From Fragilaria crotonensis (lineage: Eukaryota > Bacillariophyta > Fragilariophyceae > Fragilariales > Fragilariaceae), in NCBI GenBank assembly GCA_022925895.1, contig JAKSYS010000554.1, positions 1-42,190 on the forward strand: a stretch of DNA of 42,190 nucleotides. Reading direction: 5' to 3'. Made by a program: the position numbers and the translations under genes. This document shows positions 1 through 36,597 of the stretch, piece by piece (within the stretch, counting starts at the first letter, position 1; each line of letters starts with the position of its first letter). Below the pieces are notes generated by a model, which had not been told where the DNA came from, searched no databases, and saw only the letters and a list, made by a program, of their open reading frames with translations.

Positions 1-2
1 GT

Positions 3-242
3 GATGTTGTAGGTGACGGTATGCAGTGTGCGTTGGGTCGAGAAGGTGGTGCGCCTGATTGGGAGCCTCGTGAACACGGTCGACACTGGGAGCATCGTCG
101 AGGAGGAGACATCGTTGACACTCGTCGTGATTGTTGGTTTAGCACTCCCAAACGCGAGTCACACCGGCAAGAGGTCATGGGAGCAACCAGGGGCACCGGG
201 GACGCGACAGACTGGGGGTACCCCGTGGAGATAACGAACTAA
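3..242 (+). CDS. Unrecognised partial ORF at the left edge
   Basis: This frame is open from the first complete codon of the window to a TAA at 240-242, so the start lies outside. The 79 residues are rich in Arg, Gly, His and Trp and end in PVEITN. I do not recognise a domain. A copia linker between integrase and reverse transcriptase is conceivable, because a copia fragment flanks the other side of the nest at 9896, but nothing in the residues proves it. The two other + frames and one minus frame are also open here, so coding status is uncertain. Confidence 0.25.
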   Translation, partial: DVVGDGMQCALGREGGAPDWEPREHGRHWEHRRGGDIVDTRRDCWFSTPKRESHRQEVMGATRGTGDATDWGYPVEITN

Positions 243-495
243 AGCAATACCGCTTTCCATAGAGTGCTTTTTCAAATGATCACGGATGCACCTTTCATCC
301 ATTCGAATTGGAGTATTTATTTTGCATTCTTGACAGCCAAGTCCGAATGGAGAAAAGGTGAACAGTTCTTGAATTGGACCAAAATCCAGCTGTCTCTTTT
401 GGGTTGTGGACATGTCCATAGTTACTAGTGGATGCTTTGTTGTTCTGTGTGGTTGGCGATGTTGTTGCATGAGATGCATCGTACTTCTGCAACAC
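243..495 (-). pseudogene. Element A: 5' fragment of zinc-finger/helicase gene
   Basis: Reading minus from an ATG at 419, the peptide contains FSPFGLGCQECK, then IRDHLKKHSMES. This is a C-x2-C-x15-H-x3-H zinc finger closely matching the ones at about 3930-4030 and 9250-9340 (FSPFGLGCRMCK ... IHLKKH). Homology to those copies stops at about 243, where unrelated sequence of the left flank begins, so only the N-terminal finger survives. In this copy the residues after the finger (HSMESGI) stay in frame, whereas elements B and B' are frameshifted at the same place. Its upstream side leads directly into the iteron terminus at 545-700, as in the other copies. Confidence 0.6.
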
Positions 496-544
496 CTGGG
501 CGCGCCAATTGAGATGGTACGGGATCTACGGGAACGCGGCGTAG

Positions 545-700
545 CACCCGACGTACACGTCTCTAAATAAAAAGTGACACACGACGTACAAAAAGTGACA
601 CCCACCGTACAAATCCTCAGTTAAAAATGACACCCGCCGTATCAAGTAAAAGTATCTATATCTGTGGATATTTTATCTATTTTTAGGCCCGCCCCCTTAG
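545..700 (+). repeat. Terminus T1 of element A: four iterons and C-rich core
   Basis: Four 12-mers related to CACCCGACGTAC start at 545, 578, 599 and 631 (spacings 33, 21, 32). They are followed by a TATC-AAGTAAAA-type AT-rich block and the core CGCCCCCTTAG at 690-700. The G of the core lies 60 bp after the start of the last iteron. Copies at 4296-4451, 9625-9779 and 9787-9896 have the same plan. I infer that this is the right end of a mobile element and the likely binding site of its recombination protein. Being upstream of the element's own gene, it could also act as promoter or operator. Confidence 0.75.
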
Positions 701-3700
701 GGACAGGCTCCACATTTTTCGGTTGTTTCTCTTCCAAACATGGTTGACAAAATTTGCACTGCACAACCGCACAGTCCTTGGGAAGCATTTGAAAGCCAAT
801 CTCGAACACCCGATGATGTCATGACAGCTGTGAAGTTGACGTGATCTTGTGCCAATATGAATCCTTCGTTCAGGAGCCTTGTATACCTGAGATTGTCATT
901 GATGATGCGGTGAGGAGAAAGGTTGTCAGGTACGGCAAATAGCACTTGTCCAAAGTTCATTCGCATGCTGTTCCGAAAGCGACCTAAGAACTGGACGATT
1001 TGCATGGAGTCGTACAGATAGCCAACACAAACCAAATGTCTGCAGGAAGGATTTTCATTGCCGACCAATCCAATTGTGGTTGATATGAGGACATCCAACT
1101 GTCCTTTGCTCCATTCTGCGGCAATTTGATTGACTTCTTCTTGTGAGGAGTCCGAGGAAACAAATTTGCAGTTGAACCTAGGGAATAATTGATCCAATAG
1201 GAAAGTCCCATCCTTCTTTTCTGCAACAATAACGTGAACAGCAGCAAGTCCACTTCCAGATTCCAATTTTGTTTTGACAAAGTGAGCAGCGACATATTTA
1301 TATCGCGAAGTAATTGACACTTTGATTTCGAACCCCTGTGGGAACCCACCGACAACATGACTCCCGAGGATAAGTTTGACATCACTGAGGTCGTGGGTTC
1401 TCGATAATCCAAGTTGCTTAGCAAATCTTTTAACGGCAAAAATTGGAAGCGAGCCACTCATGACAACAATGGGAATACCCAGACTTGGGAGTTCTGAATA
1501 AACCCTATATTTGTCGCAGCTCATTTCAGAAAGTATGGTGTGGACTTCGTCGATTACAATTTTATCAACGACATCCACCCAAGACTTGAATACCGGAGAT
1601 ACTTGAACAAATTGTTAACGGCATCAGGTTCAAGAAAAGTAAGCTTGGAAGGCTATCTTTCTCCCGAAGCTCTTCTGGTAGTGCACCATCAGAGGTGATG
1701 TCCCGACCAGAAAAAACACAGATGGTGGAATGTAGGGAAAGCATCTCGAACGCCGCGGATGCCATTGCAAACTGATACCCAGCCAAGAATCGAAATGGTG
1801 AAATGTGGATGATTGTCTTTGATTTATGGTTGGCGAGGTTGCGAGCGATAATTGGAATTATATAGGACTCCGACTTTCCCTCGCCTGGAGCGAGTAGAGC
1901 TATGCAATGCTGTGGCTTGTTGTTGAACTCGGCACTGTACCCAAACTCAACCAACTCTTTTTGCTGCACAGACAAATAGTGGTCGTGACCATTACTCGGA
2001 CTTACCAAATTTGGAAACCGAAGTCGCACTGCATTGCGAAGGTCTGCCAAGGAAAGTCTCACCAAGAATTTGGATATTTGATATGACGTGTCACCAATCG
2101 CAAAATGATAGGCGTTGAAGTGTGCCTCCTCCGAACCGACTTGCTGGCTGGAATAGGCAGTGGAATGAGTCAATGCAGAATGACCCATTTTTGAGGCTCC
2201 CATGGAGTTCGACGACAGAAAATTGTGAAGTTGGTGGTGGCCACCGGTCACAAAGTTTGAAACACCAGCCCAAAAGTGCCGAACCTGTATCATGTTTGGA
2301 ATTGCAGATAAGGAAAAGAGATCTCTGATGATGTGTGATGGTTGAATTGCTGAACGATTGATCCTTGTAGGGAAAATGAGATTCCGAGTGTTGTCGCTGT
2401 CGTGGCTGGTGAACAAACTTGCGTTCGATTGGATCAGAGATCGGAACAACAAGAAATATCTGGAGATAACAGGAGGTAGCTTGCGCTCGATTTCCTTGCT
2501 GGTTCGACGTGATGTGCTGTTGAACCCTTTCAGGGTAGAAAGTGTGTAATAGACTGTATTGTTGGTGAAGAGACAATTAAACATTGTTGGATCGCGAAGC
2601 TCGTTCAACCTGGCCGAACCCCCGCCGAAACCGTGAAAAGACATTTCTAAAAGTGCTGTCAAATGGTCGAAATGCTACCGACTCCCACCAAATTCCATTG
2701 GCCAAGTTTGACATTGCGAGCTTCATCAAGAGCACAGTCTTAGGAACAATTTGTGACCAGGTGTCAAATGGAAAGGAGAATTGATCGACAACAATGTTTC
2801 CGATTTCATCAAGAGTGGTCTTCCTTCGTTTTGGGAGTCGACGATGCATTTCACGAATTTGCCGGAGCATCGGTGACAGAGAATGGAGAACGTGGGATCT
2901 TCGTACAGCAGTTAAAAAGTGCTGGACCATGTGTTGAGAATGCATCTTCTGTATAGGAACAAATAACAGAACAAATGGCAGCTTTCAATATTGATGACAC
3001 CTTGGCAAAGATGGAAGATATGGTGTCGCACGAGATCATTTTGATTTTTGAACCATTTTTTTCAATGCGAAATCCTGACATCAAACAGAACTCAACTGCA
3101 AGGGGATGATGTTCCACTGATGCCGGGATCTCAAGCATCAGATTGGCCAAAAAGTACGCAATTGCAAATCCGTCGTTGGTGTGAAATGGCTTGCGAGAAA
3201 AGACACCTCGTCGGTATGCAAATGATAGAAGCTTCTTGAGTTCAATGAGGAGAGTTGTTGGATCATGTTGCATGGTATAAATGGTGCGTTGCGAGATATC
3301 ATCCACTTCACCGCCTTCAAATGTTTGCAATGCGGCACGAAGATTTCCGGGAACCATTAAAATATTCTTCTGGGCATACTTCAGAAGCCAGATTTCTGCT
3401 TCTTTATGGATGGGTAGCAAAAGTGGCTCTTGAGTTGGATTTGGTAGAGTATGGATGGCGGCAAAATCTTCTTCAATTTTCTCAACGAATTGTGCAGCAC
3501 CCCCCACATTGAGATATGAGAGGGGTAAACATATGTGTGTAGGTGTGGTCGTCTTTTTCACGGTTTGGTAGGAACGAGATGAGTGCCGCTCTTGCCTCAA
3601 CGTAATCAAATTGTTTCGTAATGTGAGGTGGCATGCTGAAAAGGGGTTCGATTTGACTCGAAGACACGTATGAACCGCAACACAGCTTAGTGAGATTGAC

Positions 3701-4155
3701 TTGCTGTAGCTTTGTTGGGTCACAGCCACCCTTCTGACAATGCCGAATGGCACTATCCTTCCTTAATTGAAAAACTTTCCCGCAAGTACATGATACACCC
3801 TTGTATGTGACATCATCAACACGATATGGTTCAATTGAGCGATAACGCTTGACTTCCTCAATTTGTGTTTTGAAGCTTTCCAAATGGGATTTTGCAGTAG
3901 AAATCCCGCGCTTTCCATTCCATGTTTTTTGAGATGGATTTGAATGCTTCTCAGATTCAATTGAATCGTTACCGATTTCTTGCACATTCGACACCCCAGA
4001 CCAAATGGCGAGAAGTTGAATGGTCCACAACTGAACGCAAGAGGAGAAACTACTGGAGCAACACGATCCTGCCATGGGGAAATCTCTGTTGCTGCTTGTC
4101 TTTTTTTTGGTGTGGGAGTGATTGGGAACATGGTCGCAGCATCAAAAGCAAACAA
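697..4155 (-). pseudogene. Element B: zinc-finger RecQ-like helicase, frameshifted
   Basis: Minus-strand coding runs through overlapping frames 3763-4155, 3482-4075, 2851-3753, 2577-2945, 1565-2662 and 697-1578, implying about five frameshifts. The N-terminus has a C2H2 finger (GCRMCKK...IHLKKH) and a second Cys/His cluster (SCTCGKVF...IRHCQKGGC). After about 500 unassigned residues come SF2 helicase motifs in order: Walker A-like APGEGKSESYIIP, IIHISPFRFLAGYQ, DEVH box (VIDEVHTIL), SGSLP as motif III, LDVLISTTIGL as V and QFLGRFRNS as VI. This order is that of RecQ-type helicases. Fungal proteins with an OrsD-like zinc-finger region fused to a RecQ-like helicase are the closest architecture I know, but that link is inference. 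The stop codon (TAA on minus, 697-699) is made by the core of terminus T1, so the 3' end is truncated or ends exactly at the junction. Overlapping frames favour small indels over introns. Confidence 0.7.
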
Positions 4156-4295
4156 ATGTGATGATTCATGCAGTACTGTGTGTGTGAAGTACCGACGGAT
4201 TGGAGGTCCGCGCCATATTTTTGTGGCTGATCCGCGCCTGCCATGCTGATGATGTGATGACGACGATTATGGAGCCCTACAGCGGAGCTCTGTAC

Positions 4296-4451
4296 CACCC
4301 GATGAAGAGGTTGCGTATCTAATGGTACCACCCAATGCTGAAAAAGACACACCCGATGCAAGTTTTCCCATATTAAATTCCCACCCGATGTATCAAGTAA
4401 AAAAATACATCCCTGAAGTAATTTTATATAGAAATCGGACCGCCCCCTTAG
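4296..4451 (+). repeat. Terminus T2 of element B: four iterons and core
   Basis: Iterons of form CACCCGATG start at 4296, 4329, 4350 and 4382 (spacings 33, 21, 32, identical to T1). The core CGCCCCCTTAG is at 4441-4451, its G 60 bp after the last iteron start. The iteron consensus differs from T1 (GATG in place of GACGTAC), so the fixed spacing is not explained by recent duplication. The next base begins LINE coding sequence (codons GAG CCA CCT), making 4451/4452 a sharp junction. Confidence 0.75.
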
Positions 4452-4683
4452 GAGCCACCTCGGAATGAACAAGAATGTATACAACAACTTCGACGGTCAG
4501 AGCAAGAAGTTCGGAAGATCGTCAATGGAAGTTTCGAACGGCGAGTGCAGGAGAGACTCCGTCGGATTCAGGAACTTCAGACATCGGGATCAGCGTCCGA
4601 TCGAAATCAAGCCAGAGTCTTGCGTCAAATTCATAGTGCTGAAGCCAAAAATAGAGTGTATGCGAAGTTGAGATCTCTCCCGA

Positions 4684-7600
4684 ATGGTTAATGAACGAAC
4701 AGGAGTTTCACGCATAGAAATACCACTGCATCCAGATCAAGATCCAAAGACATGTTCAGAATGGCAACAAATTGACGTTCCAACGGTGGTGCTTGAACAG
4801 CTAAGAAGTCGAAATCAAAAGCATTTTGGACAGGCAGCTGGGACTCCATTTACAGTTCCACCGCTTAGCCACCAATTGGGTTATCGAGGTGATGGAGAGT
4901 TCGCAGATCAAATTCTTACGGGAAATTATCAATACCCAGCGGGATTAACAGACAATGTTCGCAAATTTCTTTATCATTTAAGAATCACTGACGAACTGGC
5001 ACAACTGCAAGTATTCCCAACCATCGACGAAAAAGATTATGTAGGGAAACTAAAGGCCTGGCGCGAATCGACAGTGACATCTCCTTCGCGGATGCACCTG
5101 GGACATTATAAAGCAATGATATCGAAACATTTGTACTCCCAGATTCCTGAAGTTGAGAGCGACGAGCATAAGGCATTTCGAGAGGAGTTGGACTTTAAAC
5201 AGAGTGAAATCTTGCGAGTACATTTACTATTGATGAACTATGCTTTGGAGCGCGGTTATTCTTACCAACGGTGGCAAACAGTTGCAAATTCAGTATTATT
5301 TAAAGAGCCGGGAAATATTCGAATCCACAGGACAAGGATCATTCACATTTATGAGGCTGATTATAATTTGATGTTGGGATTAAAGTGGCGTTCGGCATTA
5401 CTTCAGGCGGAAGCACTTGCGCAATTAAACAGTGGTCAGTTCGGTTCACGTCCAAAGCATAATGCGACGGACCCTGTATTTGTTGAAGAACTTCAACTCG
5501 AGTTATCGCGGATTACCAGGAAGACGCTCGCACTCACCAATTATGATGCTACGGCATGTTACGATCGAATCATCCCAAACTTTGCGATGACAGCAAGTCG
5601 GAAATTTGGAGTGTCGGCAACGGTTTCACATTCGAATGCACGTACGCTCGAACAGACGGATTATCGGATTCGCACCGATGTGGGTCTGGCTACCGAGGGA
5701 TATCAACACTCAGAGGATTACCCCATATACGGCACGGGACAAGGAAGCGGCAATTCCCCAGTCATTTGGTGTTTTATATCCAGCATTTTGTACGATTGTT
5801 ACGAAGAACTTGCAAGCACAGCTCAGTATCGCACTCCGGATAACCAAAGAAAAATGGAATTGGGAATGATTGGTTATGTCGATGATTCAAATGGACAAAC
5901 AAACTGTTTTGATGACATCGAGACGACTGCGACTGCATTGGAAGTTCTGCATAAGATGCAGAAAAATGCAAATATATGGTCACAGCTGTTAAGTGTGTCG
6001 GGTGGAGCGTTGGAGCTGACGAAATGCTCTTATCACATTGTTCATTGGAAATTTGCCACATCTGGGGCTCCGGTACTGTGTAACGATCGGGAACAGTTCG
6101 GCGGTGTGGCAGTGTCCGATGTGATAACAGGGGAATCGTACGAATTGCAGTATCTGGCTCCATACGAGGCTCACAAAACTCTGGATCATTATAAAGAGCC
6201 GTCAGGAATCCAAACCACTCAGTATCGGAAATTGTGGGAAAAGAGCAACGCATTAACCTCGTTTCTCTGGAGTAATCATATTACGCGAGAAGAGGCATGG
6301 ATATTTTACTTCTCGACGTACCTCCCAAGTGTTTCTTATCCTTTGGCAAATTCACATTTTACCGAATCTCAGTTGACAAAATTACAAAAGCGAGCAATGA
6401 ATATTCTGTTTGCGAAGTGTGGTTTTAACAGAAATACAAAACGCGAAGTACTTTTTGGGCCTCTTGACTTGGGGGGCGCAGACTTCAGGCGGCTGTATGA
6501 CCAACAAGGCATCGGTCAGATCATAACTTACTTACGTCATTGGAGAACACGAACACTTGTGGGGGATCTGTTACGAATGGTCCTCGAATGGTGTAATTAT
6601 GTTGCGGTTCTATCGGTCTCAATCCTCGAGAATACTTCTTGTAAACTTCCACATCTGGAATCCAAATGGATCGCTTCGCTGAGAGATTATTTGCACAGCG
6701 TTGGAGCATCGATTCAGGTTGACGCGGACGGGATTCCTCCTCTGGAACAAGAAAATGATGATTATGTTATGGAAAGAGTAGTGCGGTCTCGACAATTCAA
6801 GGCATCAGAAATTCGGAAAATAAACTATTGCCGATTGTATCTCCAAGCGGTTATGCTGTCGGATCTGGCTACCGTCACAGGAGACGTTCTTGACGATACT
6901 AAGTTGAGCGGTAATCCTTCACTCCAGAGTAGTCGATCTAGATGGAATGGGGTACATCAAGAGAAGCCGTCTCCACTTGAATGGAGATTGTGGCGGAAAG
7001 CGAATCGTTTGTGGTCACAGCCCTCGGGGAGGTTGGATGTCCCACTGGGTCGGTGGTTGAGAAAACACAGAGATCGCAGAATCGAACTCTTTGCGTACCA
7101 ATATCGCAACCGATTGGCGGTACGAGTAGCAGATGGCTTTGTGGTACGTCGCCAATCACAACAGTCATATACCCGATATGAGGAAACAAGTCGAGTGATA
7201 AGATATCTCAACATCCCTAACGAGGCGGTCCCTACGACTGTGGTACATAATGATGACTTGAGCTGGGAGGTTATACGCAGAGGTATGGTACTTTGCTCGA
7301 ATGTTGCACAATCAGATATGTCTACTTTTTCTTCGTTCATCGAATCGCTGGCACCATGGGAGATAGATATTCTCCGTCATACGACGCTAAGCGTTGATCC
7401 TCGAATGGCGGTTTGGGAATTACAGGAACATTTTCAGGCGGGAACGGACGGTTCTTCTAAGCATCATGGGACGCAAGGGGCGTTTGGTTGGATAGTAACT
7501 ACGTCTTCAGGTGAGCGGATAGCTTCAGGGAATGGTCCCTCACGGGGAGCAAAGATTGATTCATATCGAGCAGAATGCAGCGGGATGCTTACATTCCTCC

Positions 7601-8022
7601 GATTCTTGATTCGCCTAGCAGAGTATACGGACATGTTTGGTACATGGGTTGGTCGAGTAGGAACGGATAGTCAGAGTATGTTGGATCGGTTATTCGGTAA
7701 ACAGAACACTGGCTCTTCGGAAGTCCACCGATACAACGCTAGTAACTTGAAGGAATTGGATGTGTTCGTTTCCGAGTGGGACTTGTTGCACGAGATCCAA
7801 ATCGCACTGCGATTACTACCAGACGTCACGTTGGAATATGTCAAAGGACATCAGGACGATCATGTGGATTTTTCCTCCCTTTCTCTTATGGCCCAACTGA
7901 ACGTAGAGGCAGACGGGTTAGCTACGAGGTATCAACAACAATTTGGAAGGACTTGCCCGCATGTGTTGATGTCCGAGCACGCTGGGGCGTATCTAGTGGT
8001 GGAAGATGGGAGTGACTCATAA
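4684..8022 (+). CDS. Reverse transcriptase-RNase H ORF of LINE copy I
   Basis: An open frame of 1112 codons. It starts with a segment shared with copy III (GVSRIEIPLHP...KHFGQAAGTPFT), then shows RT signatures: SRMHLGHYKAM at about 137-147, motif A YDATACYDRI near 287, motif B GTGQGSGNSP near 347, and motif C YVDD near 397. RNase H follows with its acidic residues: GTDGSS near 919, YRAECSG near 961, GTDSQSM near 992, and KGHQDD with NVEADGLA near 1052-1080. The enzyme would reverse-transcribe the element RNA at the nicked target and remove the RNA strand. The ATG at 4684 is probably not a natural start, because the upstream linker is in another frame. All catalytic residues that I can check are present, so the loss of function comes from the missing endonuclease and the 3' frameshifts. 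Confidence 0.85.
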   Translation: MVNERTGVSRIEIPLHPDQDPKTCSEWQQIDVPTVVLEQLRSRNQKHFGQAAGTPFTVPPLSHQLGYRGDGEFADQILTGNYQYPAGLTDNVRKFLYHLRITDELAQLQVFPTIDEKDYVGKLKAWRESTVTSPSRMHLGHYKAMISKHLYSQIPEVESDEHKAFREELDFKQSEILRVHLLLMNYALERGYSYQRWQTVANSVLFKEPGNIRIHRTRIIHIYEADYNLMLGLKWRSALLQAEALAQLNSGQFGSRPKHNATDPVFVEELQLELSRITRKTLALTNYDATACYDRIIPNFAMTASRKFGVSATVSHSNARTLEQTDYRIRTDVGLATEGYQHSEDYPIYGTGQGSGNSPVIWCFISSILYDCYEELASTAQYRTPDNQRKMELGMIGYVDDSNGQTNCFDDIETTATALEVLHKMQKNANIWSQLLSVSGGALELTKCSYHIVHWKFATSGAPVLCNDREQFGGVAVSDVITGESYELQYLAPYEAHKTLDHYKEPSGIQTTQYRKLWEKSNALTSFLWSNHITREEAWIFYFSTYLPSVSYPLANSHFTESQLTKLQKRAMNILFAKCGFNRNTKREVLFGPLDLGGADFRRLYDQQGIGQIITYLRHWRTRTLVGDLLRMVLEWCNYVAVLSVSILENTSCKLPHLESKWIASLRDYLHSVGASIQVDADGIPPLEQENDDYVMERVVRSRQFKASEIRKINYCRLYLQAVMLSDLATVTGDVLDDTKLSGNPSLQSSRSRWNGVHQEKPSPLEWRLWRKANRLWSQPSGRLDVPLGRWLRKHRDRRIELFAYQYRNRLAVRVADGFVVRRQSQQSYTRYEETSRVIRYLNIPNEAVPTTVVHNDDLSWEVIRRGMVLCSNVAQSDMSTFSSFIESLAPWEIDILRHTTLSVDPRMAVWELQEHFQAGTDGSSKHHGTQGAFGWIVTTSSGERIASGNGPSRGAKIDSYRAECSGMLTFLRFLIRLAEYTDMFGTWVGRVGTDSQSMLDRLFGKQNTGSSEVHRYNASNLKELDVFVSEWDLLHEIQIALRLLPDVTLEYVKGHQDDHVDFSSLSLMAQLNVEADGLATRYQQQFGRTCPHVLMSEHAGAYLVVEDGSDS

Positions 8023-8912
8023 AGTGCCTCAAATTGTACGTCGATTGGCTACTGGCCCTCCCCTTCGGGAGTATATCAGAAATAAGAATGGATGGAATGA
8101 GAACATTATGCACACTATTAACTGGCAAGCACATGCTCGATTTATGAAACACAACATCGAGCGGCGAGTGCATTTTTCGAAAATGGTTCACGAATGCTTG
8201 CCGACAAACAGTCTGCGCAATCGGATGGATTCCGGGCGGAGAACGTGCCCAGTATGTCCGAGCGAACACGAAACGAGGGATCATATATTGCGATGTTCAA
8301 GCAGTTCTCGGGTGGTTTGGAGAACTGCTTTTGCATCGTCTTGAGGAGTTTCATGGTCAAGAAGACACATGCCCATTTATTCGATTCTTGCTGAGAGAGG
8401 CATTATCCCAATGGTTTCGCGAAGAGGAAAATGACATCACGGTATCCCCCTTGTTTTTCCCCCGTGACGTCCGAGACATTATCCTTCAGCAAAATGCGAT
8501 AGGATGGCGACAAATTTTCAACGCCCGATTTGGAAGTGAATGGAGTCGCGTCCAACAAGAGTATTATTGTAAAGCATCAACAGGTACCAGTGGTAATAAG
8601 CAGCGCACAGGCGAACGGTGGCAGGTCAAACTTGCAAAATTGATCGGAGAGAATTGGTTGGAACTCTGGAAAGTGCGGAATGCAGAGGTTCACGGTCATG
8701 ATCATCGCACTCAAGCAGAAGCTTTGCGCCGAGATGTTTCCCGACAGTTGGATGGGATATATCAACAGCGAGCTCATTACGAACCGCAAGTCCAACGGCT
8801 CCTGTTCCCAGACGTCAACGAGCATCTCAATCGTCCAATGTGGGTGACCCGTAATTGGTTGGCAATCAACGCACCGATTTTTCGTGAAAGTATGCGGCGT
8901 GCAAAAAGATAG
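8006..8912 (+). pseudogene. C-terminal zinc-binding region of LINE copy I, two frameshifts
   Basis: The protein continues one base out of phase from about 8008 (VTHKVPQIVRRL...) to 8344 and again from about 8335 to the stop at 8910-8912. The first part carries a zf-RVT-like cluster, TCPVCPSEHETRDHILRC, placed after the RNase H as in copies II and III. The last part ends in a region shared with copy III (LELWKVRNAEVHGH, later HYEPQVQRLLFPD and WLAINAPIFRES). The first shift occurs at TGGGAG and is a +1 shift. I see no polyA or polyT tail between the stop and the next element at 8932. Confidence 0.7.
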
Positions 8913-8931
8913 GGCTATACAAGGAGTACGA

Positions 8932-9627
8932 TCATTGCATTCCTATTTTCCGTCCATGTCTTAGGCTTGATGGCTTAAGAGAGAGTGCTACTTGACAGTA
9001 TTCGCACAGGATACTGTTGAGTCGTGTGAGTCGGTTCTTCTTGTCTGTGAGGATTGCGGCAGCACGTAAAAAGATTTTAGGTTTTTTTTTGAATTGAAAA
9101 ACTTTCCCACAAGTACACAATACACCCTTGTATGTGACATCATCAACACGATATGGTTCAATTGAGCGATAATGCTTGACTTCCTCAATTTGTGTTTTGA
9201 AGCTTTCCAAAAGGGATTTTGTAGTAGAAATCCCGCTCTCCATTCCATGCTTTTTAGATGGATTTGAATGCTTCTCAGATTCAATTGAATTGTTACCGAT
9301 TTCTTGCACATTCGACACCCCAGACCAAATGGCGAGAAGTTGAATGGTCCACAACTGAACGCAAGAGGAGAAACTACTGGAACAACACAATCCTGCCACG
9401 GGGAAATCTCTGTTGTTGCTTGTCTTTTTTTTTGGTGTGGGAGTGATTGGGAACATGATCGCAGCATCAAAAGCAAGTGAATGTGATGTTTCATGCAATA
9501 TCGTGCTGTTGTGATATACTGACGGTGATTGGAGGTCCGCGCCATATTTTTGTGGCTGATCCGGGCCTGCCATGCTGATGATGTGATGACGACAAATAGG
9601 GACCCCTACAGCGGAGCTCTGTACCAC
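8932..9627 (-). pseudogene. Element B': internally deleted copy of the zinc-finger gene
   Basis: From about 9091 to 9627 this is nearly the same DNA as 3765-4300 in element B, including the finger FSPFGLGCRMCK (in the frame 8988-9545) and the CTCGKVFQ cluster. At 9090, next to a run of nine T, homology stops. The frame continues into a different 50-residue tail containing LCEYCQ and ending at 8932, only 20 bp from the LINE I stop. The whole helicase is absent. One A is missing in the A-run of the finger (HLKS instead of HLKKH), so finger and tail are in different frames. I infer an internally deleted, non-autonomous derivative. The origin of the tail is unknown. Confidence 0.6.
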
Positions 9628-9779
9628 CCGATGAAAAGGTTACGTATCTAATGGTACCACCCAATGCTGAAAAAGACACACCCGATGCAAGTTTTCCCAT
9701 ATTAAATTCCACCCAATGTATCAAGTAAAAAAATACATCCCTGAAGTAATTTTATATAGAAATCGGACCGCCCCCTTAG
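9625..9779 (+). repeat. Terminus T3 of element B': four iterons and core
   Basis: Iterons start at 9625, 9658, 9679 and 9710 (spacings 33, 21, 31) and the core CGCCCCCTTAG lies at 9769-9779, its G 60 bp after the last iteron. The sequence is nearly identical to T2 except for one missing C before the fourth iteron. The terminus is followed directly by the iterons of T4, so one element sits end-to-end on another. Confidence 0.75.
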
Positions 9780-9786
9780 GGGATCC

Positions 9787-9896
9787 CTCTCGACGTACAA
9801 AAATGTCCCTCCCGACGTACAAAAATCACTCACGACGTGTCGAATAAAAGTATCCATACCTTATGATATTTTATTGACATAAAAGCCCGCCCCCTT
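9787..9896 (+). repeat. Terminus T4 of element C: three iterons and core
   Basis: Three iterons (CTCTCGACGTAC, CTCCCGACGTAC, CTCACGACGTGT) start at 9787, 9809 and 9829. The core CGCCCCCTT is at 9888-9896 with its G again exactly 60 bp after the last iteron. The iteron type is that of T1 (GACGTAC), not T2/T3. No gene of element C remains: the insertion bearing T3 starts just upstream. On the right, the copia reverse transcriptase begins at once (ATA TCG TAT GTC GAT GAT), giving the clearest outside boundary of the family. Confidence 0.75.
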
Positions 9897-10998
9897 CATA
9901 TCGTATGTCGATGATTTGGTTTTCCAAGGGATTGACCCGAAAGGTTTTATGGACTCACTTGGAAAGCGGTTCACTTTGAAGGCTGGGAGCGTGAAGGAAC
10001 CTGACACCTACCTCGGAGCGAACGTCAAGAAATTTCGAATTCAAGAAAGTGACGATCCTGACAAGGTTAGATGGGCCTTCGAATCCACCTCATACGTGAC
10101 TAAGGCTATTACAGATGTCGAACGCGAACTCGCGGAGGCAGATATGAGATTGTTGTCGAACGCGAAGACTCCACTAGCAAGTGGCTATCGTCCAGAGCTC
10201 GACATGTCTGCAGAACTGGGAAGCAGACAACTAAATTACTACCAAGGTTTGATTGGTATTTTGCGCTGGATATGCGAATTGGGAAGGCTCGATATTTTGA
10301 TGCCCGTCGTGTCTATCATGTTGCGATACCTTGTATCTGCAAGAGAGGGCCATCTCGAGCAGGTATTCCACATATTTGCGTATTTAAAAGGGCATAGAAG
10401 ATCGACGATGGTATTTGACGATACGGTCCCGGTCTACGAGAGTAAAAGATTCGTGAAGTGCGATTGGACGGAGTTTTATCCTGAGGCAAGTGAAGCGATT
10501 CCTACAAACATGCCGGAACCGCGAGGCAAAGAGGTTATGATGTTATGTTTTGTCGATGCTGACCACGCCGGATGCAGGGAGACGCGTAGATCGCATTCAG
10601 GAATCATTATATTCGTTAATCGGGCGCCGATATTGTGGTTTTCAAAGAGACAGAATACTGTCGAAGCCTCGACCTAAGGATCTGAATTGCTTGCGATGCG
10701 GATAGCGATCGAAATGATCGAGGGTCTACGATACAAGTTGCGCATGATGGGCGTACCAATTGTTGAAGAATGTGCAGTTTTCTGTGATAATTCGGCAGTG
10801 GTTACCAATGCGCGACCAGAATCAACCTTGAAGAAGAAGCATGCAGCAATAAATTTCCATCGGGTCCGAGAAGCCATAGCTGCGGGGACAATCAAAGTTG
10901 CAAAAGAAGATACGAGCACCAATCTTGCCGACATATTGACAAAGTTAATGCCAGGTCCGAAGATGAAGGAGTTACTTGAGAGCCTGTTATGGTGATGT
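9896..10998 (+). pseudogene. Ty1/copia-type Pol fragment (RT from YVDD, RNase H)
   Basis: The frame opens at the junction with T4 inside the reverse transcriptase at SYVDDLVFQG, the catalytic motif of copia-type RT. It continues through YLGANVKKF, YYQGLIGILRW, FVDADHAGCRETRRS and WFSKRQNTVEAST, which are typical RT-RNase H landmarks of copia elements. A single in-frame TAA at 10675-10677 interrupts the RNase H where most relatives have an aromatic residue before GSE. Beyond it the same frame continues (LLAMRIAIEMIEG, FCDNSAVV, NLADILTKLMPGP) to the stop at 10996-10998. The part of Pol before YVDD is not found in the window. Confidence 0.85.
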
Positions 10999-11380
10999 AT
11001 CAAACCGGGGACATGCGGCACGGGGACATTGCCTAGGGGACGCATTGGAGACTGTCCAGAACCAGTAGATCTTTACCAGATTTTCAGTTAAAGTACAAGA
11101 TCGAGGCCTCTGTTACGGTATCCGATTGAGTTTCATCTGAGTGTGGAGTTACGACTTCGACTAACATAAGTCAGATCGGAGTCGCGGGGACTGTTTATAT
11201 TACGTGATCGTGATATATCATACATGAGATATACCATACGGTATGAGTATGTGACAGTACGGTCAGAGACTCTACTGACGGACTCACTTTTTTGTGTGAT
11301 CTATTTGATTAACTCATAGGCTACCATTACACGCTTTACAATGAGTGATGATCACATAGATTAAATACTTAGCATTAGAA
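10999..11380. other. Non-coding stretch after copia; possible LTR
   Basis: No convincing ORF. A purine-rich stretch (GGAGTCGCGGGGA, 11178-11190) followed by TG at 11192 could be a polypurine tract and LTR start, with a possible end at an ACA near 11450. A second LTR copy is not in the window, so this cannot be confirmed. The candidate end would overlap the possible terminal exon of the next gene. Confidence 0.25.
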
Positions 11381-11582
11381 CTAATCACTAGTAGTAACAG
11401 CTAACAACTTGATCAATTCTAAAAAGAGTGAGTCTACGAATCTAGGAACACTTCTGACACCGCCTGGAGGGCTTATGCGGTCATTGCGATCCCTAACATG
11501 ACCGGCATAAATCCCTAGCTCGTCCGCTTTGTCCGGGTGTCCGAATAACCCGAACTCATGATAGAATTCATTCAGTACTTAC
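11381..11582 (-). other. Possible second intron and terminal exon of the secreted protein gene
   Basis: The long exon of the secreted protein ends in a truncated repeat, ..KTGC then KY and a stop. The DNA there is GCT followed by GTAAGT (11582-11577), a perfect 5' splice site. A phase-compatible acceptor CTCCAG ends at 11464. Splicing out 119 bp (11464-11582) recreates the expected TGC cysteine codon and reads on for 26 residues (GVRSVPRFVDSLFLELIKLL...) to a TAG at 11381-11383. The alternative is that the protein simply ends at GCKY. The evidence is splice signal and phase only. Confidence 0.4.
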
Positions 11583-13826
11583 AGCCTGTTTTCAAGGCAT
11601 TGGCAATTTGGCCGGCAGGGCAAGGCTGGCACTTTCCATATTGGGCATACTCGAAGACGCCTGGGCAAAGAGATGTGCCACTTGCGTTAAGACAGGGTGA
11701 ATCAGGCACCCCCGTACTATCGCCGCGCACAAATCCGTCAGGACACCATGCACAGCCTGTTTTCAAGTCGTTGGCATTTTGGCCGGCGGGGCAATTCTGG
11801 CACTTTCCATATTGGGCGTATAGCCAGGCCTTGTCACACAGACCTGCGCCACGCGCGTCAACACAGGCTGAAAGCATCGTCCCCGTAGCATTGCCGCGCA
11901 CTGTTCCATCAGAACACCAGCGACAGCCGATATTACCTGGGTTGCCAACTTGGCCGATGGGGCAATCGTGGCATGCTCCATACTGGGCTTGCTGCCATTG
12001 TTTGCAAACACCCATGCACTCGCCTTCAGGTAGTCCTGTGGAATTGCCACGAATGGTTCCGTCAGGACACCATGCACAGCCTGTTTTCAAGTCGTTGGCA
12101 TTTTGGCCGGCGGGGCAAGTCTGGCACTTTCCATATTGGGCATACAGCCAGGCCTTGTCACAAAGACCTGGGACACGTGCGTCAAGACAGGGTGAAAGCA
12201 TCTCCCCCGTAGCATCGCCGCGCACAAATCCGTCAGCACACCATTCACAGCCTGTTTTCAAGGCGTTGGCATTTTGGCCGGCGGGGCAAGTCTGGCACTT
12301 TCCATATTGGGCATACAGCCAGGCCTTGTCACAAAGAGCTGTGCCACTTGCGTTAAGACAGGGTGAAAGCATCTCCCCCGTAGCATCGCCGCGCACAAAT
12401 CCGTCAGCACACCATTCACAGCCTGTTTTCAAGGCGTTGGCATTTTGGCCAGCGGGGCAAGTCTGGCACTTTCCATATTGGGCATACAGCCAGGCTCCGT
12501 CGCAAAGAGCTGTGCCACTTGCGTTAAGACAGGGTGAAAGCATCTCCCCCGTAGCTTCGCCGCGCACAAATCCGTCAGCACACCATTCACAGCCTGTTTT
12601 CAAGGCGTTGGCATTTTGGCCTGCGGGGCAAGTCTGGCACTTTCCATATTGGGCATACAGCCAGGCTCCGTCGCAAAGAGCTGTGCCACTTGCGTTAAGA
12701 CAGGGTGAAAGCATCTCCCCCGTAGCTTCGCCGCGCACAAATCCGTCAGGACACCATTCACAGCCTGTTTTCAAGGCGTTGGCACTTTGGCCGGCGGGGC
12801 AAGTCTGGCACTTTCCATATTGGCCATAAAGCCAGTTACTTTCGCAAGGAGCACCATTGCCACCTGCGTCAACACAGACAGTTGTGGCGTTTCCGTATGC
12901 GCCGCGCACTGTTCCGTCCGGACACCATTCACAGCCTGTTCCAGCTGCGTTCTTACGTTGGCCGGCGGGACAGGGCAGGCAGCTTGTCCCAGAAACATAC
13001 TCCCAGTCTTGAGGAGTGCAGGTCTCGCTTGGTTTACCAGTTGGAGCCCGTGTTGGAGCCCGTGTTGGAGCCCTTGTTGGAGCCCGTGTTGGAGCCTCAG
13101 TTGCTGGAGCCCTTGTTGGCGCCCTTGTTGGCGCCCGTGTTGGAGCGCGTGTGGGAGAGCGAGTTGGAGCCCCAGTTGGTGCCATTGTTGGAGCTCCGGT
13201 GGGAGCCGCAGTTGGGGCATCAGTTGGAGCATGAGTTGGAGCATCAGTTGGAGCATCAGTTGGAGCACCAGTTGGAGCACCAGTTGGAGCACCAGTTGGA
13301 GCACCGGTCGGAAGACCAGTTGGAGCCTGTGTTGGAGCCCGTGTTGGAGCCCTTGTTGGAGCCCGTGTTGGAGCGAGTGTTGGAGCCCGTGTTGGAGCGA
13401 GTGTTGGAGCGCGTGTTGGAGCGCGTGTTGGAGAGGGTGTTGGAACGCGTGTTGGCGCTCGTGTCGGAGCGCGGGTGGGAGCGCGAGTTGGAGCCCCAGT
13501 TGGTGCCGGAGTCGGTGCAATAGTTGGAGCCTCAGTTGGAGCAGCAGTTGGAAGACCAGTTTGGGCCCGAGTTGGAGCTGGAGTTAGAGCTCGAGTCGGA
13601 GCACGAGTTGGTTCTCCAGTTGGAGCACCAGTTGGAGCACCAGTTGGAGCACCAGTTGGAGCACCAGTTGGAGTCCAAGTGGTATTCTGATAGCGACGAG
13701 ACAGGAGTGGATTTGAGTTGCTGGAGCGTTGTGGAATAACATTCACGAAAGTTTGCTTACACCATGAATCTCAGCAACAACAGTTACAAAAGTCAGGAGG
13801 AGAAGGAGGAAGCTGCAGGTTTTCAT
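11572..13826 (-). CDS. Secreted Pro/Thr-repeat and Cys-repeat protein (two exons)
   Basis: The start is ATG at 13826-13824. Exon 1 (13761-13826) encodes 22 residues, MKTCSFLLLLLTFVTVVAE then IHG, a textbook signal peptide. A 74-bp intron (13687-13760, GTAAGC...TATCAG) joins it in phase to exon 2 (11572-13686). Mature residues from about 25 to 240 are Pro-Thr repeats (APTGAPT, APTRAPT), expected to be extended and O-glycosylated. Residues from about 245 to 726 are nine Cys-rich modules (YGKCQTCPAGQNANALKTGC, then EWCADGFVRG) with six Cys and often an NAS or NST sequon per module. This resembles EGF/GCC2-GCC3-like extracellular repeats. The likely role is cell-surface, mucilage or adhesive matrix, which I infer from design only. 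No TM segment or catalytic site is visible in this frame. A start inside exon 2 would lose the signal peptide. The 3' end may continue through a further intron. Confidence 0.8.
11590..12990 (-). repeat. 171-bp tandem Cys-module repeats
   Basis: Corresponding points in successive modules (the CTGGCACTTTCC word on the + strand) fall at 11626, 11797, 12121, 12292, 12463, 12634 and 12805. The step is 171 bp (57 codons), apart from one 51-codon module between 11968 and 12121. The units at 12121-12805 are almost identical at the DNA level, while the outer ones have diverged. This indicates recent unit duplication or gene conversion in the middle of the array. Confidence 0.85.
13036..13670 (-). repeat. 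Pro-Thr-Xaa-Ala minisatellite (12-bp unit)
   Basis: About 50 tandem units of 12 bp encode A-P-T-x (x mostly Gly, Arg, Asp, Leu). On the + strand the array appears as repeats of GTTGGAGC. It forms a long unstructured linker between signal peptide and Cys modules. The opposite-strand ORFs here are by-products of the repeat. Confidence 0.85.
13687..13760 (-). other. Predicted 74-bp intron separating signal peptide and repeat exons
   Basis: Donor GTAAGC and acceptor TATCAG flank a pyrimidine-rich 3' half on the minus strand. Splicing joins GGT (end of the signal peptide frame) to AAT ACC ACT TGG in phase 0. Unspliced, the signal-peptide frame hits a TGA 21 bp after the donor begins, and the repeat frame has no ATG, which is why splicing is preferred. 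Confidence 0.7.
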
Positions 13827-15212: not shown

Positions 15213-16013
15213 TGTCTTGTCCAGAGTACCAAATAATGTATCATACGACAAGTACTTGTATGACTAATGACATTGTCCAAGTATAACTCATGTGATGACT
15301 GAGTACAGTACTGTACAGGTTAGAGTACTAGTGCTTGGAGTATAGCATTGGTTTATTCATACAAGTGTACTTGTACTACAAATACCGAGTGATGACGAGA
15401 TAGCATTGAAAGCGCTTGTTGAGAATCGACAAGCCACGGAGTACGTGACTGAGTTGGTAAGTTGAGCGTCGTTACGAACTCTGGGAGTGTAGAGCTAATG
15501 GCTATTCTGGTGATGAAGATGGTCGGAGCTGATCATTCCGCTTTCGGTGGGGAATGACATGCCGGTTCTGGTGTCACCACGGCTTGATGATAAGCTCGTG
15601 TTTTAAGAAGAAATGGATTTCTCTTGCTGGTGGACTTGAAGCTCAAACGAAGGAGGGCCAGGCAAGCAACAACCAGCGTATCAGTGCCACCTTCTAGGGA
15701 GCAAGTGGCAAATATGGAAATCACCAAAAAGCACCAATTTGGCACCTGCCAGAGCGATGCTGATTATAAGTCCGCACCAGCATTGCGACAAAATGTTAAC
15801 TAGCTATGTCGTACAAGCTACTAGTCACGGACGATGTACAAACACCGACGTTACTGACCACTATACTACTAGTACTAAATGTATTGTTTCACAACTCATC
15901 ATGAGCTGTTGCCGTAACTCTAGGACTGCAATACTGCTGCAGCCCACTAGCGTTGATTTTGATGGGGCGTGTTTTTGACCTCACTGTGTGTCCGTGCATC
16001 ATTCCATATGATA

Positions 16014-16030
16014 TTGCTACAGTACGGTAC
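16014..16030 (+). repeat. Left target-site duplication of LINE copy II
   Basis: TTGCTACAGTACGGTAC is repeated exactly at 21461-21477. The left copy is followed directly by endonuclease coding sequence, and the right copy is preceded by the AT-rich 3' end of the element. Confidence 0.85.
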
Positions 16031-17118
16031 GTTTTCACCGTCAGTCAAAAATCATCTTCGGTTCGGCGTCTCCCGCAATTGACCCATGTTTACAACATGA
16101 AAGCTTCCAATCAGGAGGAACTGTTACGGCAGTATTCGATGATATTTCCTCTCGTGTAACAGGTCCAAGCATTATCGACCCTACGGGTCTTGGACGATGG
16201 AGCGGCGTTACAATTGAAGGCACCCGAGCAAGGAAATTATCTATCATCACGGCTTATCGAGTTTGTAAAGGATCCCCACAAAGCGCACCTCTTGGGAGTT
16301 CGTTTCTTCGGGAGTACGAATTCTTTAGAGAACGGTCCGGAAAGTCGGTTAATCCTCGTCGACAGTTCTTATGTGACCTTCAGAAATCGGTCCTGGCACT
16401 GCAAGAGTCAGGAAACTGTGTCATCATTATGCTAGACGCCAATTCCACTATCGATGACAAGGAATTAGCAACTTTTGTTGCTTCATGTGGTCTACATGAC
16501 TGCCACTCCCTTGCACCTTCGCCCTCGACATACATTGGGTCATCTGATCGACGAATTGATTTTATTTTTGGGTGCGACGAGGCTTTGCAGTTGGTTATTC
16601 GAAGCGGTATCCTCGCCTATACGGAAGGTCCGCAGTCCGATCATAGAGGATTATACGTGGATATTTCCCATGAATTTATAACACGGACTCCATGGTCGAC
16701 GTCTATACCCTCTGCTGCACGCCATCTCCACACAGGAAATCCGGAGTTAGTGGAAAAATACAATCTAGCTATGTTAGACTATTATGGCAAACATCGCATG
16801 GTTGAACGCATCGAGGACTTGTATCAACGCCATCAACAGATGCCCCGCGAGGATCTACGAGCAGCTCTCATTAGCTGGGATAATGACCAAGGTCGCTCTA
16901 TGGAGTCCAGCGAACGGCTACTGAAGCGACCGCCTCAAAGTGCCAATGGTCTCCGGCGCTTGAAACAGTGCAATTCTGCGAAGATATTGGATGCTCCGCC
17001 TACGCGAGCTCCTTCACGGCAAAAATTTTCAGTCTACTTTCATTCGTTGGCAAACGCAGGTTCAGCAAAGCGATCCCCAGTTTCTTCTACCTTCCCTGGG
17101 GACTCGGTTATCTGTTGA
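16031..17118 (+). pseudogene. LINE II endonuclease domain, N-terminally truncated
   Basis: The frame is open from the TSD and reads KIIFGSAS...GGTVTAVFDDISSR...GLGRWSGVTIEG. It continues through VIIMLDANST (equivalent of the GDFN motif), RRIDFIFGC and SDHRGLYVD, the last three catalytic signatures of the exonuclease-endonuclease-phosphatase fold. The first two motifs (Asn and Glu) are lost to 5' truncation. In LINEs this domain nicks the target DNA. The frame breaks at about 16960, where a linker continues in other frames (RLRELLHGKNFQS, then RLQCYEDLLDTYLEDKNPA). Confidence 0.8.
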
Positions 17119-17389
17119 CCAGATTCGACATGAACTCACGCAGGCTAATAATCGTTTCCGTCGACTTCAAAGATATCTATCCCCTTCGCCTTCAGTGTTA
17201 TGAGGATCTCTTGGACACATATCTTGAGGATAAAAACCCAGCAACGCAAGCATCATCACGGCGTAAGGCGAAGATTGTGCTGAACACAATTCGGGAGAAA
17301 CGACTCGCACGACCTTTGGACATATCCGACGGATCACAAAACCATCGGAGCGGTCTAGCCTCTCTAAAGTTCTTGTCCCACCTTCCTCA

Positions 17390-19475
17390 ATGGCACATGA
17401 ATCTGGTTATTCGGCCTACCACATTACCCAAGAGCATACTGATATACCATGGGAAACCGTATTTACTCGAGAGGAGCTGGAACAACACATTTTGGATTAT
17501 AACAAAGAGTCTTTTCGTGCAGCGTCCGAGTCTCCCTGTGGTCACGGTATAATCCATGACGCACTGACCTTCACCAGCTTGTCTCCACAGTCCGAAGATC
17601 TCTTGTCAGGAATCGTACCTGAGGAGTGGCATGGCTCCGACAACTATCTTCGTGAATTTCTGGCCTCATTTGTCATTCCCATGCACGTACGCACCCACGG
17701 AGATATCCCTACTGGAATATCATCGGACGATGTCATTCGAGGGTTCAAAGGATGGAAAGAGCAGACATCAACTTCACCAAGTGGTCGTCACCTTGGGCAC
17801 TATCGAGCTTTGATACAGGATCCGATCTTATTGAAGTGTTTTGTCTATTTTATGAACATTGTTGTTACTCGCGGGATTGCAATTCCAAGATGGTGCCGAG
17901 CCACAAACGTCATGATTGAAAAAGACGCCGGGAAACCTTGTATTCATCGATTAAGAATTGTCCACTTGTTCGAGGCGGATTACAACTTCTTTTTAAAACT
18001 TCAGTGGGGCCATCGATTGGTCCGTCACGCATGTGCACTGGACCTTCTGCACGACTCCCAACACGGTTCCATTCCCCGTCGGACTGCCATCGATCCTATA
18101 ATGCTAACGCAGCTCACAACCGATTTATGTCGTGTCTTACGTCACGATATGGCTCGTTTTGACAACGACGCCTCAGCGTGCTATGACAGAATCATCGTTG
18201 CGCTTGGTATGTTGGCTGCGCGCAGGTGTGGCATGCCCAAGAATGCAGTTCGTCTTCATGCAGAGGCTCTTCAATTCATGCGGTATACGGTAAAGACAGC
18301 ATACGGTGTCTCGGAATCGAATTACTCAGGAACCCCTTTTGCTCCTTTATTTGGCACTGGCCAAGGTAGCGGCGCATCACCGGCAGTCTGGTTATCACTC
18401 GTTGTTCTCCTCCTACATGCATTCGACCGCATTGTTCCCCATCGCATGCATTTTGATCCCATCGCTGGTGGTAGACCCCATTCACGGTCATCGGACGCGT
18501 TCGTGGACGATACGTCGGTGGGCTTTACGTCAAATGATGGCGACTCATACAGCGATCTTATCGCTCGTCTAGAGTTTGTCGCACAGTCTTGGAAAAACTA
18601 CTATACATGTCGGGAGGCAAACTAAATTTGAAGAAATGCTCCTTTTTTGTTCTTCAATGGGAATGGCAGCACGGCCGCCCAATCTTAAGAAGGATGATAC
18701 CGAATGCTCCGTCGATATCCCTGACTCAAGGCAAATCACCAACTCGCCATGCTATAAAGCAAACATCACCGACCGATTCAATTCGAATGCTGGGAGTCCT
18801 TTTAAACCCGATGGGGATTTCACTGACCATCTTGCTGCTCTGAAAGAAAAAGCGGACACTTTTGCGCGACGTTTACGATCTCCACGTCTGACTGAAATGG
18901 ATGTTGCGATTTTCCATCGTTCGATTTATATTCCATCGATGCGATATAGCCTGGCAGCCCTCGCCACAAACGAAGAGGAATTATCCAAGGTCCAGTCACA
19001 AATCAGTAGAGTCATCCTTCAACGCCTGCATATTCGCAGCACCATCCCAACAGCCTTACGATATGGACCTCTTGAACTCGGTGGTCTCGGACTGTATGAT
19101 TTGCGGACCGAAATGGGTATCGAGACCCTTAAGTTTCTTCGAAACGCCCTGTACAGTGACTCGGAGGCTGGAAATTTAATCCGACTGAACCTCGATTACT
19201 CGCAGCGGGAGGCAGGAGTTGACTTCCATCTCTTGGAGCATCCCAACCGGCATGTTTCTTATTTAACACCGTCTTGGATACTGTCGGTGCGTCAGTTTCT
19301 TGGCAATAACAACATGCACCTACAGATTTCGGATCTTCATCTTGACCCACTTCGTGGCCCGAAGGATGAATACATCATGCAGTTGGACCATTTGAGAGTA
19401 CACACCTGCGCAACAACAGGACTTAAATCTCGTCCGCCTGTGGCTCCAAGTTGCTACTTTAGCCGACATGTGTGA
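17390..19475 (+). pseudogene. LINE II reverse transcriptase, frameshifted
   Basis: Frame 17390-18625 carries SPSGRHLGHYRAL, motif A NDASACYDRI, motif B GTGQGSGASP and motif C FVDD. It breaks at about 18590, where SGGKLNLKKC continues in the frame 18589-18843. The frame 18576-19475 then takes over (HLAALKEKADTFARRLRS, GPLELGGLGLYDL), matching the thumb region of the other two copies (GPLDLGGADF in copy I). The RT core residues are intact, so the inactivating lesions are indels. Confidence 0.8.
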
Positions 19476-26041: not shown

Positions 26042-26584
26042 ATGGAGAGACAATTTACAAGATTCGATGATTTAGATCACAGGTTCGACGTGATGCAAGG
26101 GAACCTAATGAATGTTATGGAAACACAAGCCGGAGTTTGGGGCACAGTGAACAAACTCAGCGATAAGATATCGGCACTCATGGACATGATAGCCCAGACA
26201 CACATACAGAATGGTCAGACGCATGGCAGCCACCCCATGACAATTAGAAGGGATAGCGCAGAGGATGACGATGACATGCAACATTCCACCTCTCCTGAAC
26301 CTCCAAATTGTCAGCTGGACAGGGTTACGTTTTCGTCACCCATTAAAAAGAAATATCGGACCGGTTGCAAAGAAAAAGATCCAGAGGAGGACCATGCCGC
26401 GGCATCACAGCATCAAGAACCGGATAATTTGGCCCCTTTATCTCAGGCAGTTAATACACCATTACCTGTCGATGACACCACAGATCTCCCGCAACACGCA
26501 ACAACAAAGTTGGACGATATTGCCACCGACCTCGAGAGTCGATACAATGAAAAAAGCTCTCAAGGCGGGGAGTCAGCATCATGA
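26042..26584 (+). CDS. LINE III ORF1
   Basis: 180 codons starting at ATG 26042, with an upstream in-frame TGA 12 bp before it. Residues 1-60 have a heptad-like pattern (RFDDLDHRFDVMQGNLMNVM, later VNKLSDKISALMDMI), suggesting a coiled coil that could trimerise as in other LINE ORF1 proteins. The rest is acidic and polar, without a zinc knuckle. A basic patch, PIKKKYR, sits near residue 101. The stop overlaps the ORF2 start as ATGA, so I assign it as ORF1 of the same RNA. A role as RNA-binding chaperone is inferred from position. Confidence 0.65.
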   Translation: MERQFTRFDDLDHRFDVMQGNLMNVMETQAGVWGTVNKLSDKISALMDMIAQTHIQNGQTHGSHPMTIRRDSAEDDDDMQHSTSPEPPNCQLDRVTFSSPIKKKYRTGCKEKDPEEDHAAASQHQEPDNLAPLSQAVNTPLPVDDTTDLPQHATTKLDDIATDLESRYNEKSSQGGESAS

Positions 26585-36397: not shown

Positions 36398-36597
36398 CGT
36401 CCGGTTCCCGCGGCACCCTTCTCTTCGACAACGTCGAATCTACCCTTCCCGCGACCGCCAACCCCGTCGACTGGATGACATTGTTCGGCCTTCTCCTGCT
36501 GCCTGGCAGGTAAGGTCCGCGCGACGCCACTTCGTTCGACAAGAATGGGATGGTGATCACGCACCACGACGAGGAGACAACCCAACACCAGACCAAT

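Follow-up and report, generated by a model that had tools for sequence, protein, structure and literature searches.

A repeated fixed terminus as the likely centromere-proximal end of subtelomeric helicase elements in Fragilaria crotonensis

The analyzed stretch of the diatom Fragilaria crotonensis (the window; 42,190 bp, the entire contig JAKSYS010000554.1, here C508) carries four related blocks, T1 to T4, each with a set of 12-bp repeats (iterons) followed by a CGCCCCC core. The question raised by this locus is what ends there. A preliminary description had taken the blocks for four mobile-element termini of fixed iteron geometry. A fixed terminus (T), an NGG junction, missing distal parts and one-way stacking were observed. 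T is fairly likely to be the fixed centromere-proximal end of subtelomeric helicase elements that have grown outward by DNA-templated joining onto broken ends. In telomere-ward order, the copies began with CCTAAGGGGGCGG; an AT-rich stretch containing a TATA-like motif and the iterons came next, usually followed by a helicase gene.

The genome examined comprised 62.1 Mb in 881 contigs. The pattern CCTAAGGGGGCGG gave 60 matches over 31 contigs, compared with 2 for the reversed control; a strict pattern of the core and the last conserved motif gave 43 matches (21 forward, 22 reverse) and 0 in the control. A set of 58 blocks with GCCCCCTT and a TAA motif was drawn from 212 kb of loci, including one doubtful block (C199; offset 46, usual 52). 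Core alignment of the 58 blocks showed conservation from about -60 to AGG, with background level reached within two bases, and the terminus CGCCCCCTTAGG was a sharp conservation boundary. The bases directly after the core were AGG in 55 blocks, AGA in 2, and CAT in one, the T4 of the window. The flanks sorted into 54 groups, with four pairs having a common flank. The sharp stop after the terminus and the 54 flank groups indicate a genuine element end. As the preliminary description had expected of a mobile terminus, the genome scan returned many matches in which the left side was related element sequence and the right flank was unrelated, not the absence elsewhere or the constant right flank that it had named as contrary evidence, and the comparison supports T blocks as true termini. 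All copies of T were one and the same end; the four in the window were not two ends of one element. No second fixed element end was seen: similarity between subfamilies halted at the helicase stop codon, while similarity within a subfamily continued past it. A fixed end on the helicase 3' side was rejected, the apparent boundary being this stop codon.

Homologous uninterrupted sequence was available for 22 junctions (at least 75% identity, alignment start within 3 bases), a set that excludes T2 and T4 of the window and in which two junctions (C273 and C578) are one common junction. The uninterrupted target ended with NGG at the junction in 20/22 and with AGG in 13/22, for background rates of 0.048 and 0.012 in the DNA examined (binomial p about 8e-25 and 3e-20, respectively). 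At five junctions, one or two copies of a 14-bp repeat (GCCTTCTCCTTAGG) lay between T and the target; a 20-base pattern for these tails had 7 exact genome matches, all at those five junctions.

The N-terminus of the helicase began 230-460 bp from the core, reading away from the block, in 32 of the 58 blocks; the others were cut earlier, ran into other sequence, or lay at the edge of the sequence examined. The intact copy, in C84, had an open frame of 1260 amino acids (aa) with Pfam matches to DEAD (2.5e-9) and Helicase_C (5e-5) and no RecQ-specific family among the matches listed; its Cys/His clusters, read by eye, appear zinc-finger-like. Among 49 pairwise comparisons with C84, 16 were saturated; the ratio of nonsynonymous to synonymous substitution rates (dN/dS) was obtained for 33, at 0.09-0.37 for 32 of these and 0.66 for the remaining one (C389), figures that are rough because of the saturated pairs and many dS values above 1. 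Selection seems to have maintained the helicase gene, though many copies, including that of the window, have decayed. Among the frames of at least 150 aa in the complete C84 unit, none besides the helicase stood out as a gene, and no reverse transcriptase (RT) was found among them. Helitrons have an HUH Rep with a PIF1-type helicase, a CTRR 3' end and insertion between A and T. A Helitron was rejected, the helicase here being of DEAD type without a Rep match, the end CTTAGG/CCTAAGG and the target NGG. A single protein query, with a reach of close relatives only, found no relatives in viral contigs and none confirmed in prokaryote genome contigs (one pattern match).

Beyond the helicase, the subfamilies differed. 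One had a convergent gene of unknown function (locus L089, 1992-3237) and then further sequence; members of this gene family lay close to many helicases and occurred on contigs lacking T as well. Another had an 801-aa family, dispersed in the genome with at least 57 matches and adjoining the telomere in C754 and C490. In the telomere-proximal unit of C23 (L087, 660-1480), the helicase consisted, by eye, of its N- and C-terminal ends fused through an internal deletion.

By tblastn, inner helicase copies ran to within a few bases of the next T before stopping (about 20 in C588_10913). The cut points, as query positions, were 647 (C84), 782 (C258), 183 and 315 (C411), 796 (C490), 607 (C551), 94 (C269), 184 (C754), 209 and 321 (C588), and 1160 (window). 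If the unit had been inserted internally, the missing part of more than 400 aa would be expected further out. Ten junctions on 8 contigs, each with more than 400 aa missing, were testable; C271_28657 and T1 of the window, where little was missing or little sequence was available, and junctions whose flank was not a longer helicase copy were left out. The missing part was not found telomere-ward in 10/10, including C754, which reaches telomere repeats. As a control, a fragment of a long interspersed nuclear element (LINE) inside a helicase copy of C389 retained both halves and a 14-bp duplication. The outermost helicase reached the 3' end of the gene in 7/8 contigs (C84, C258, C411, C490, C551, C588, and C754); in the exception, C269, helicase matches stopped at query position 942.

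These junctions bear on ordinary internal insertion, in which an AGG- and subtelomere-preferring transposon (LINE-like or DNA) would have its second flank hidden by later rearrangement. A sharp terminus with a short target motif is equally typical of transposon ends, and 17/58 blocks were nearer to the other contig end; however, with no remainder at any of the ten helicase junctions, one of them on a telomere-repeat contig, with strict polarity and no second fixed end, each junction would need to have lost its distal part later, and this explanation is very improbable. A cut-and-paste transposon, with two terminal inverted repeats and a target duplication, was also rejected: no inverted repeats of at least 20 bp were found in window 1-12000, and no second flank was seen at the ten junctions.

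In contigs with several copies, all copies were co-oriented (13/13 by blocks, 17/17 by exact pattern), and the helicase side faced the telomeric end in 9/9 contigs with a recognizable one. Exact (CCCTAA)4 was confined to three contigs, C23, C592 and C754, close to the left end of each, and all three carry T; the left end of C490 was marked by telomere-like repeats, and telomere-adjacent repeats marked ends of C84, C411, C413, C578 and, weakly, C776 (68 bp, 79%). The telomere repeats (L087, 1-660; L085, 1-430) were an irregular mix of CCCTAA, CCCCTAA and CTCCCTAA. No telomere tract was seen between units, the junctions being CTTAGG followed by unrelated sequence.

Three pairs of contigs shared blocks that extended outward from T. 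C490 (247-6221) was about 100% identical to C754 (430-6430) over 6 kb beside the helicase, with the same T cores and different T flanks; their helicase stretch was 99.7% identical over 1117 bp, and the sharing extended up to the telomere repeats. C588 and C783 had 2.7 kb in common, a second T junction included, but their flanks differed at the first T. C258 and C592 shared 3.4 kb past the helicase at 99%, again with different T flanks. The shared blocks thus ran across a further unit in one pair, to telomere repeats in another, and to the contig end in the third. The comparison of C84 with C592 was dropped as proof of T-to-telomere transfer, since the ends were shared but the T flank was identical. 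The distal unit of C783 was set aside, as its T lay outside the sequence examined. C588 near 12136 (T at 12129) and L055 (C783, T at 10430) had the same flank and double 14-bp tail and different T types, as if an exchange had switched the block inside T.

The iterons were examined in the window and in the other blocks. All 15 were confirmed at the positions first described (545/578/599/631, 4296/4329/4350/4382, 9625/9658/9679/9710 and 9787/9809/9829), as was the 60-bp distance between the start of the last iteron and the G of CGCCCCC at all four termini (59 bp to the first C; CGCCCCC starts at 690, 4441, 9769 and 9888). The spacing of 33-21-32, described as fixed, held for T1 and T2 and failed for T3 (33-21-31) and T4 (22-20), and the genome showed at least two layouts: iteron-like matches lay near -145/-113/-92 in many blocks (the T1/T2 layout) and near -155/-102/-80 in T4-like blocks. 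The offset from last iteron to core was exact in 53/58 blocks (2 at +2, 1 at -1, 1 at -6, and 1 without measurement). Iteron-like 12-mers numbered 90 in 40 distinct blocks, compared with 16.8 expected from mononucleotide shuffles, in blocks that share descent. The iteron geometry is real, yet not universal. The step from spacing to a recombination complex was not supported as it had been put, because 33-21-32 is one of at least two layouts and could stem from common descent.

As the iterons occupy the interval from the terminus to the helicase start, they may be an operator or promoter of the helicase gene, a sober alternative role given the TATA-like motif in the AT-rich stretch beside T, on the upstream side of the helicase start. 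Taken further, T would be no more than the conserved promoter belonging to a subtelomeric helicase gene, with unequal exchange between subtelomeres, as in Y' elements, giving rise to the arrays. The GC-rich element, TATA-like motif and iterons upstream of the helicase fit this, and the T types that differ between C588 and C783 behind the same flank and tail would be array exchange made visible. Under unequal exchange, however, the same junctions would recur, whereas there were 54 flank groups, nearly all ending at one T base; a non-homologous joining step is therefore needed, and a promoter alone is improbable.

In the proposed DNA-templated joining, a chromosome would break or erode, and the broken 3' end, finishing with ...CC(T), would pair via 2-3 bases with the AGG-3' end of T on a donor chromosome end. 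Primed synthesis would then copy T, the helicase gene and distal sequence up to the telomere. The template would be DNA, either by site-directed microhomology break-induced replication (BIR) or by joining of a T-ended fragment. T would be an opened or nicked site, perhaps recognized via the iterons by the zinc-finger-like helicase of the element, and the element would spread as a patch for broken ends; such roles of helicase and iterons in joining are a guess from the sequence. It is also possible, as a more tentative proposal, that this is a new class of selfish chromosome-end element without RT or transposase: broken chromosomes would pair via NGG with a dedicated landing site (the CTTAGG terminus and iterons bound by the zinc-finger-like helicase of the element) and copy the element along with the telomere, and end repair would be its transposition.

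A DNA template is favored over RNA because of the long shared blocks, the lack of RT, the antisense gene and the lack of a conserved fold. RNA-templated addition, as in HeT-A or Terminons, would start from a long RNA beginning near the telomere, antisense to the helicase and ending ...CGCCCCCUUAGG-3', copied onto broken 3' ends by an RT acting in trans, with pairing of 2-3 bases explaining NGG. Such copying would account for the fixed terminus, the NGG pairing and the truncation series; the 14-bp tails could be slippage, RT-encoding LINEs are present within the arrays, and rotifer Terminons offer a precedent, their 3' ends pairing with telomere overhangs in the portion of PMC6431247 consulted. 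However, the complete C84 unit had no RT frame of at least 150 aa and its long gene is antisense to such an RNA; LINE 3' ends differ (oligo-T), and one internal LINE insertion had duplicated its target; no conserved fold emerged from 78 columns of 34 distinct blocks (z 0.31 and -1.03); window 1-12000 had no Rfam match above gathering score; and shared blocks of about 10 kb up to telomere repeats would require very long RNAs. An RNA template is accordingly rather unlikely. Parasitism of LINEs at the 3' end was rejected on the differing LINE ends, and an RNA fold or ribozyme in the block on the empty conserved-fold and Rfam checks.

Several points weigh against DNA-templated joining at T. Ordinary BIR gives no fixed boundary, and a putative cut, nick or RNA end at T would be required; protein binding at the iterons is likewise putative. 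GG was absent from 2/22 targets, the T4 junction of the window (CTTCAT) had no AGG, and the 14-bp tails before the target recall slippage by an RNA-copying enzyme. The no-remainder count rests on scored candidates (38 of 188; 84 of 84 for the protein middle) and on contig ends, not on ends marked by telomere repeats or nearly identical telomere-adjacent sequence, except in C754, C490 and C84, and later loss of the distal part could also explain the missing remainder. Only 41/58 blocks were nearer to the contig end that they face, and 17, on 10 contigs, were nearer to the opposite end; the C273 block faces 155 kb and that of C197 is 59 kb away, distances that are weak evidence either way because contigs are fragments. 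Telomere-adjacent repeats also occurred inside C23 and C783, and on C44 and C427 without exact T. Later homologous exchange between T-bearing ends could give the sharing between C490 and C754.

The array in the window contained the following features:

234-413, minus strand: helicase N-terminal fragment of element A, whose proximal end is T1 (tblastn query 3-60, 55% identity to the intact C84 helicase).
545-642, plus strand: T1 iterons (545, 578, 599, 631); the T1-type block also occurs in C551 (100%) and in C783 and C588 (98%).
643-701, plus strand: T1 conserved stretch and terminus CGCCCCCTTAGG (690-701), from the core alignment and genome pattern matches.
700-4020, minus strand: decayed helicase gene of element B, with DEAD (weak) and Helicase_C regions, cut at query position 1160 of 1217 by the T1 junction.
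4296-4452, plus strand: T2, with which element B ends proximally (iterons at 4296/4329/4350/4382, then a conserved stretch and the terminus at 4441-4452).
4453-9091, plus strand: 5'-truncated non-long terminal repeat (non-LTR) retrotransposon between elements B and C (open reading frames (ORFs) 4672-8022 and 8148-8912; 3' end ...GCAGCACGTAAAAAGATTTTAGG and an oligo-T tail, T9).
9092-9780, minus strand: element C, with a helicase N-terminal fragment (9097-9344) and T3 (iterons 9625-9721, terminus 9769-9780).
9781-9899, plus strand: T4 (element D), of which the T3 junction left about 118 bp (iterons at 9787/9809/9829; core at 9888-9896, then CAT).
9897-10677, plus strand: sequence to which T4 is joined (ORF 9883-10677; no Pfam match).

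At the position of the junction between element B and T1, the uninterrupted C84 copy has AAGG; at that of the T3 junction, the uninterrupted C389 block of T4 type has TGGG. T4 was the sole block of the 58 without AG after the core. The T2 region was 98.6% identical to C125 across 1.7 kb, and the T3-type block was 98% identical in C125, in both cases with a different flank. The LINE of the array had 57% identity over 569 aa to ORF 26551-29934, which has endonuclease and RT matches, and its 3' end also occurred in C389, C588, C197 and C551. By its motifs, the sequence at 9897-10677 resembles a fragment of copia-type RT/RNase H. From this order we infer that the units were stacked from right to left: T4 would have been joined onto the copia-like fragment and T3 onto T4 cut at 118 bp; the LINE would have come to lie beside the T3 unit, T2 would have been joined onto the truncated LINE, and T1 onto the helicase of the T2 unit.

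Elsewhere in the window, LINE-like ORFs were seen by eye at 16012-21293 and 39891-42180, and an ORF at 30909-31778 matched the Plavaka transposase family (Pfam E 2.7e-6). A minus-strand ORF at 11572-13770 combined Cys-rich tandem repeats of 171 bp with a long low-complexity stretch rich in APT, and another at 34919-36439 was distant kin (23%, E 3e-12) of the 801-aa family.

Comparison with known systems showed partial likeness to several. Units of Saccharomyces Y' elements are separated by telomere-repeat tracts, unlike those found here. Y' elements and the telomere-linked helicases (TLH) of fungi are subtelomeric helicase repeats spread among chromosome ends by recombination (excerpts of PMC11042809 and PMC13177704 and, for TLH, PMC12857005). 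As in these, a helicase gene is repeated next to telomeres; unlike in these, the units are joined by a fixed non-telomeric terminus at NGG to unrelated, truncated sequence. HeT-A forms one-way arrays with a fixed inner end and truncated copies at chromosome ends. The telomeric non-LTR elements FoTeR and MoTeR likewise form one-way arrays with a fixed inner end and truncated copies at ends (excerpts of PMC12857005 and PMC8381367, respectively). The fixed inner end, variable outer end and single polarity to the telomere found here resemble HeT-A/TART, MoTeR and FoTeR; however, those carry RT or gag in sense to the copied RNA, whereas here there is a helicase only, antisense to such RNA. Terminons form head-to-tail arrays at telomeres, carry extra genes, and pair their element ends with the chromosome end over a few bases (excerpts of PMC6431247). 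These three features of Terminons and endonuclease-deficient Penelope-like elements recur here, but three others that Terminons have were not found: an RT, a hammerhead ribozyme and, where the element is attached, telomere repeats in reverse complement; for the hammerhead ribozyme, window 1-12000 had no Rfam match up to E 5. In telomere attrition-induced replication (TAIR) of Pyricularia, a failing end invades subterminal sequence and copies its distal part, and a microhomology form has been proposed (excerpts of PMC8381367). The short junction homology (NGG in 20/22) is like TAIR and microhomology BIR; unlike in TAIR, where the usual landing is on interstitial telomere repeats, a specific 12-bp terminus and iterons lie upstream of the helicase gene. 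No such element was described among the matches listed in a literature search over titles and abstract openings, and the word "helicase" occurred 0 times in the available portion of PMC9266582. Judged by analogy, the system appears to work like TAIR or microhomology BIR in the layout of Y'/TLH and telomeric retrotransposons, and each of the element families fails a tested feature.

Chromosome ends that lose their telomeres are thought to be rescued by telomerase, by retrotransposons, or by recombination of similar sequences. In this genome, dozens of junctions combine one exact donor terminus with a target of two to three bases, and the element has no RT. If DNA-templated joining at T is true, the origin of helicase-bearing subtelomeres (Y', TLH) would become testable, and the helicase could serve the joining step. 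For one eukaryote, the arrays would also preserve a natural archive of terminal deletions and of how these were repaired, and the pattern suggests that chromosome tips are rebuilt in an unusual way.

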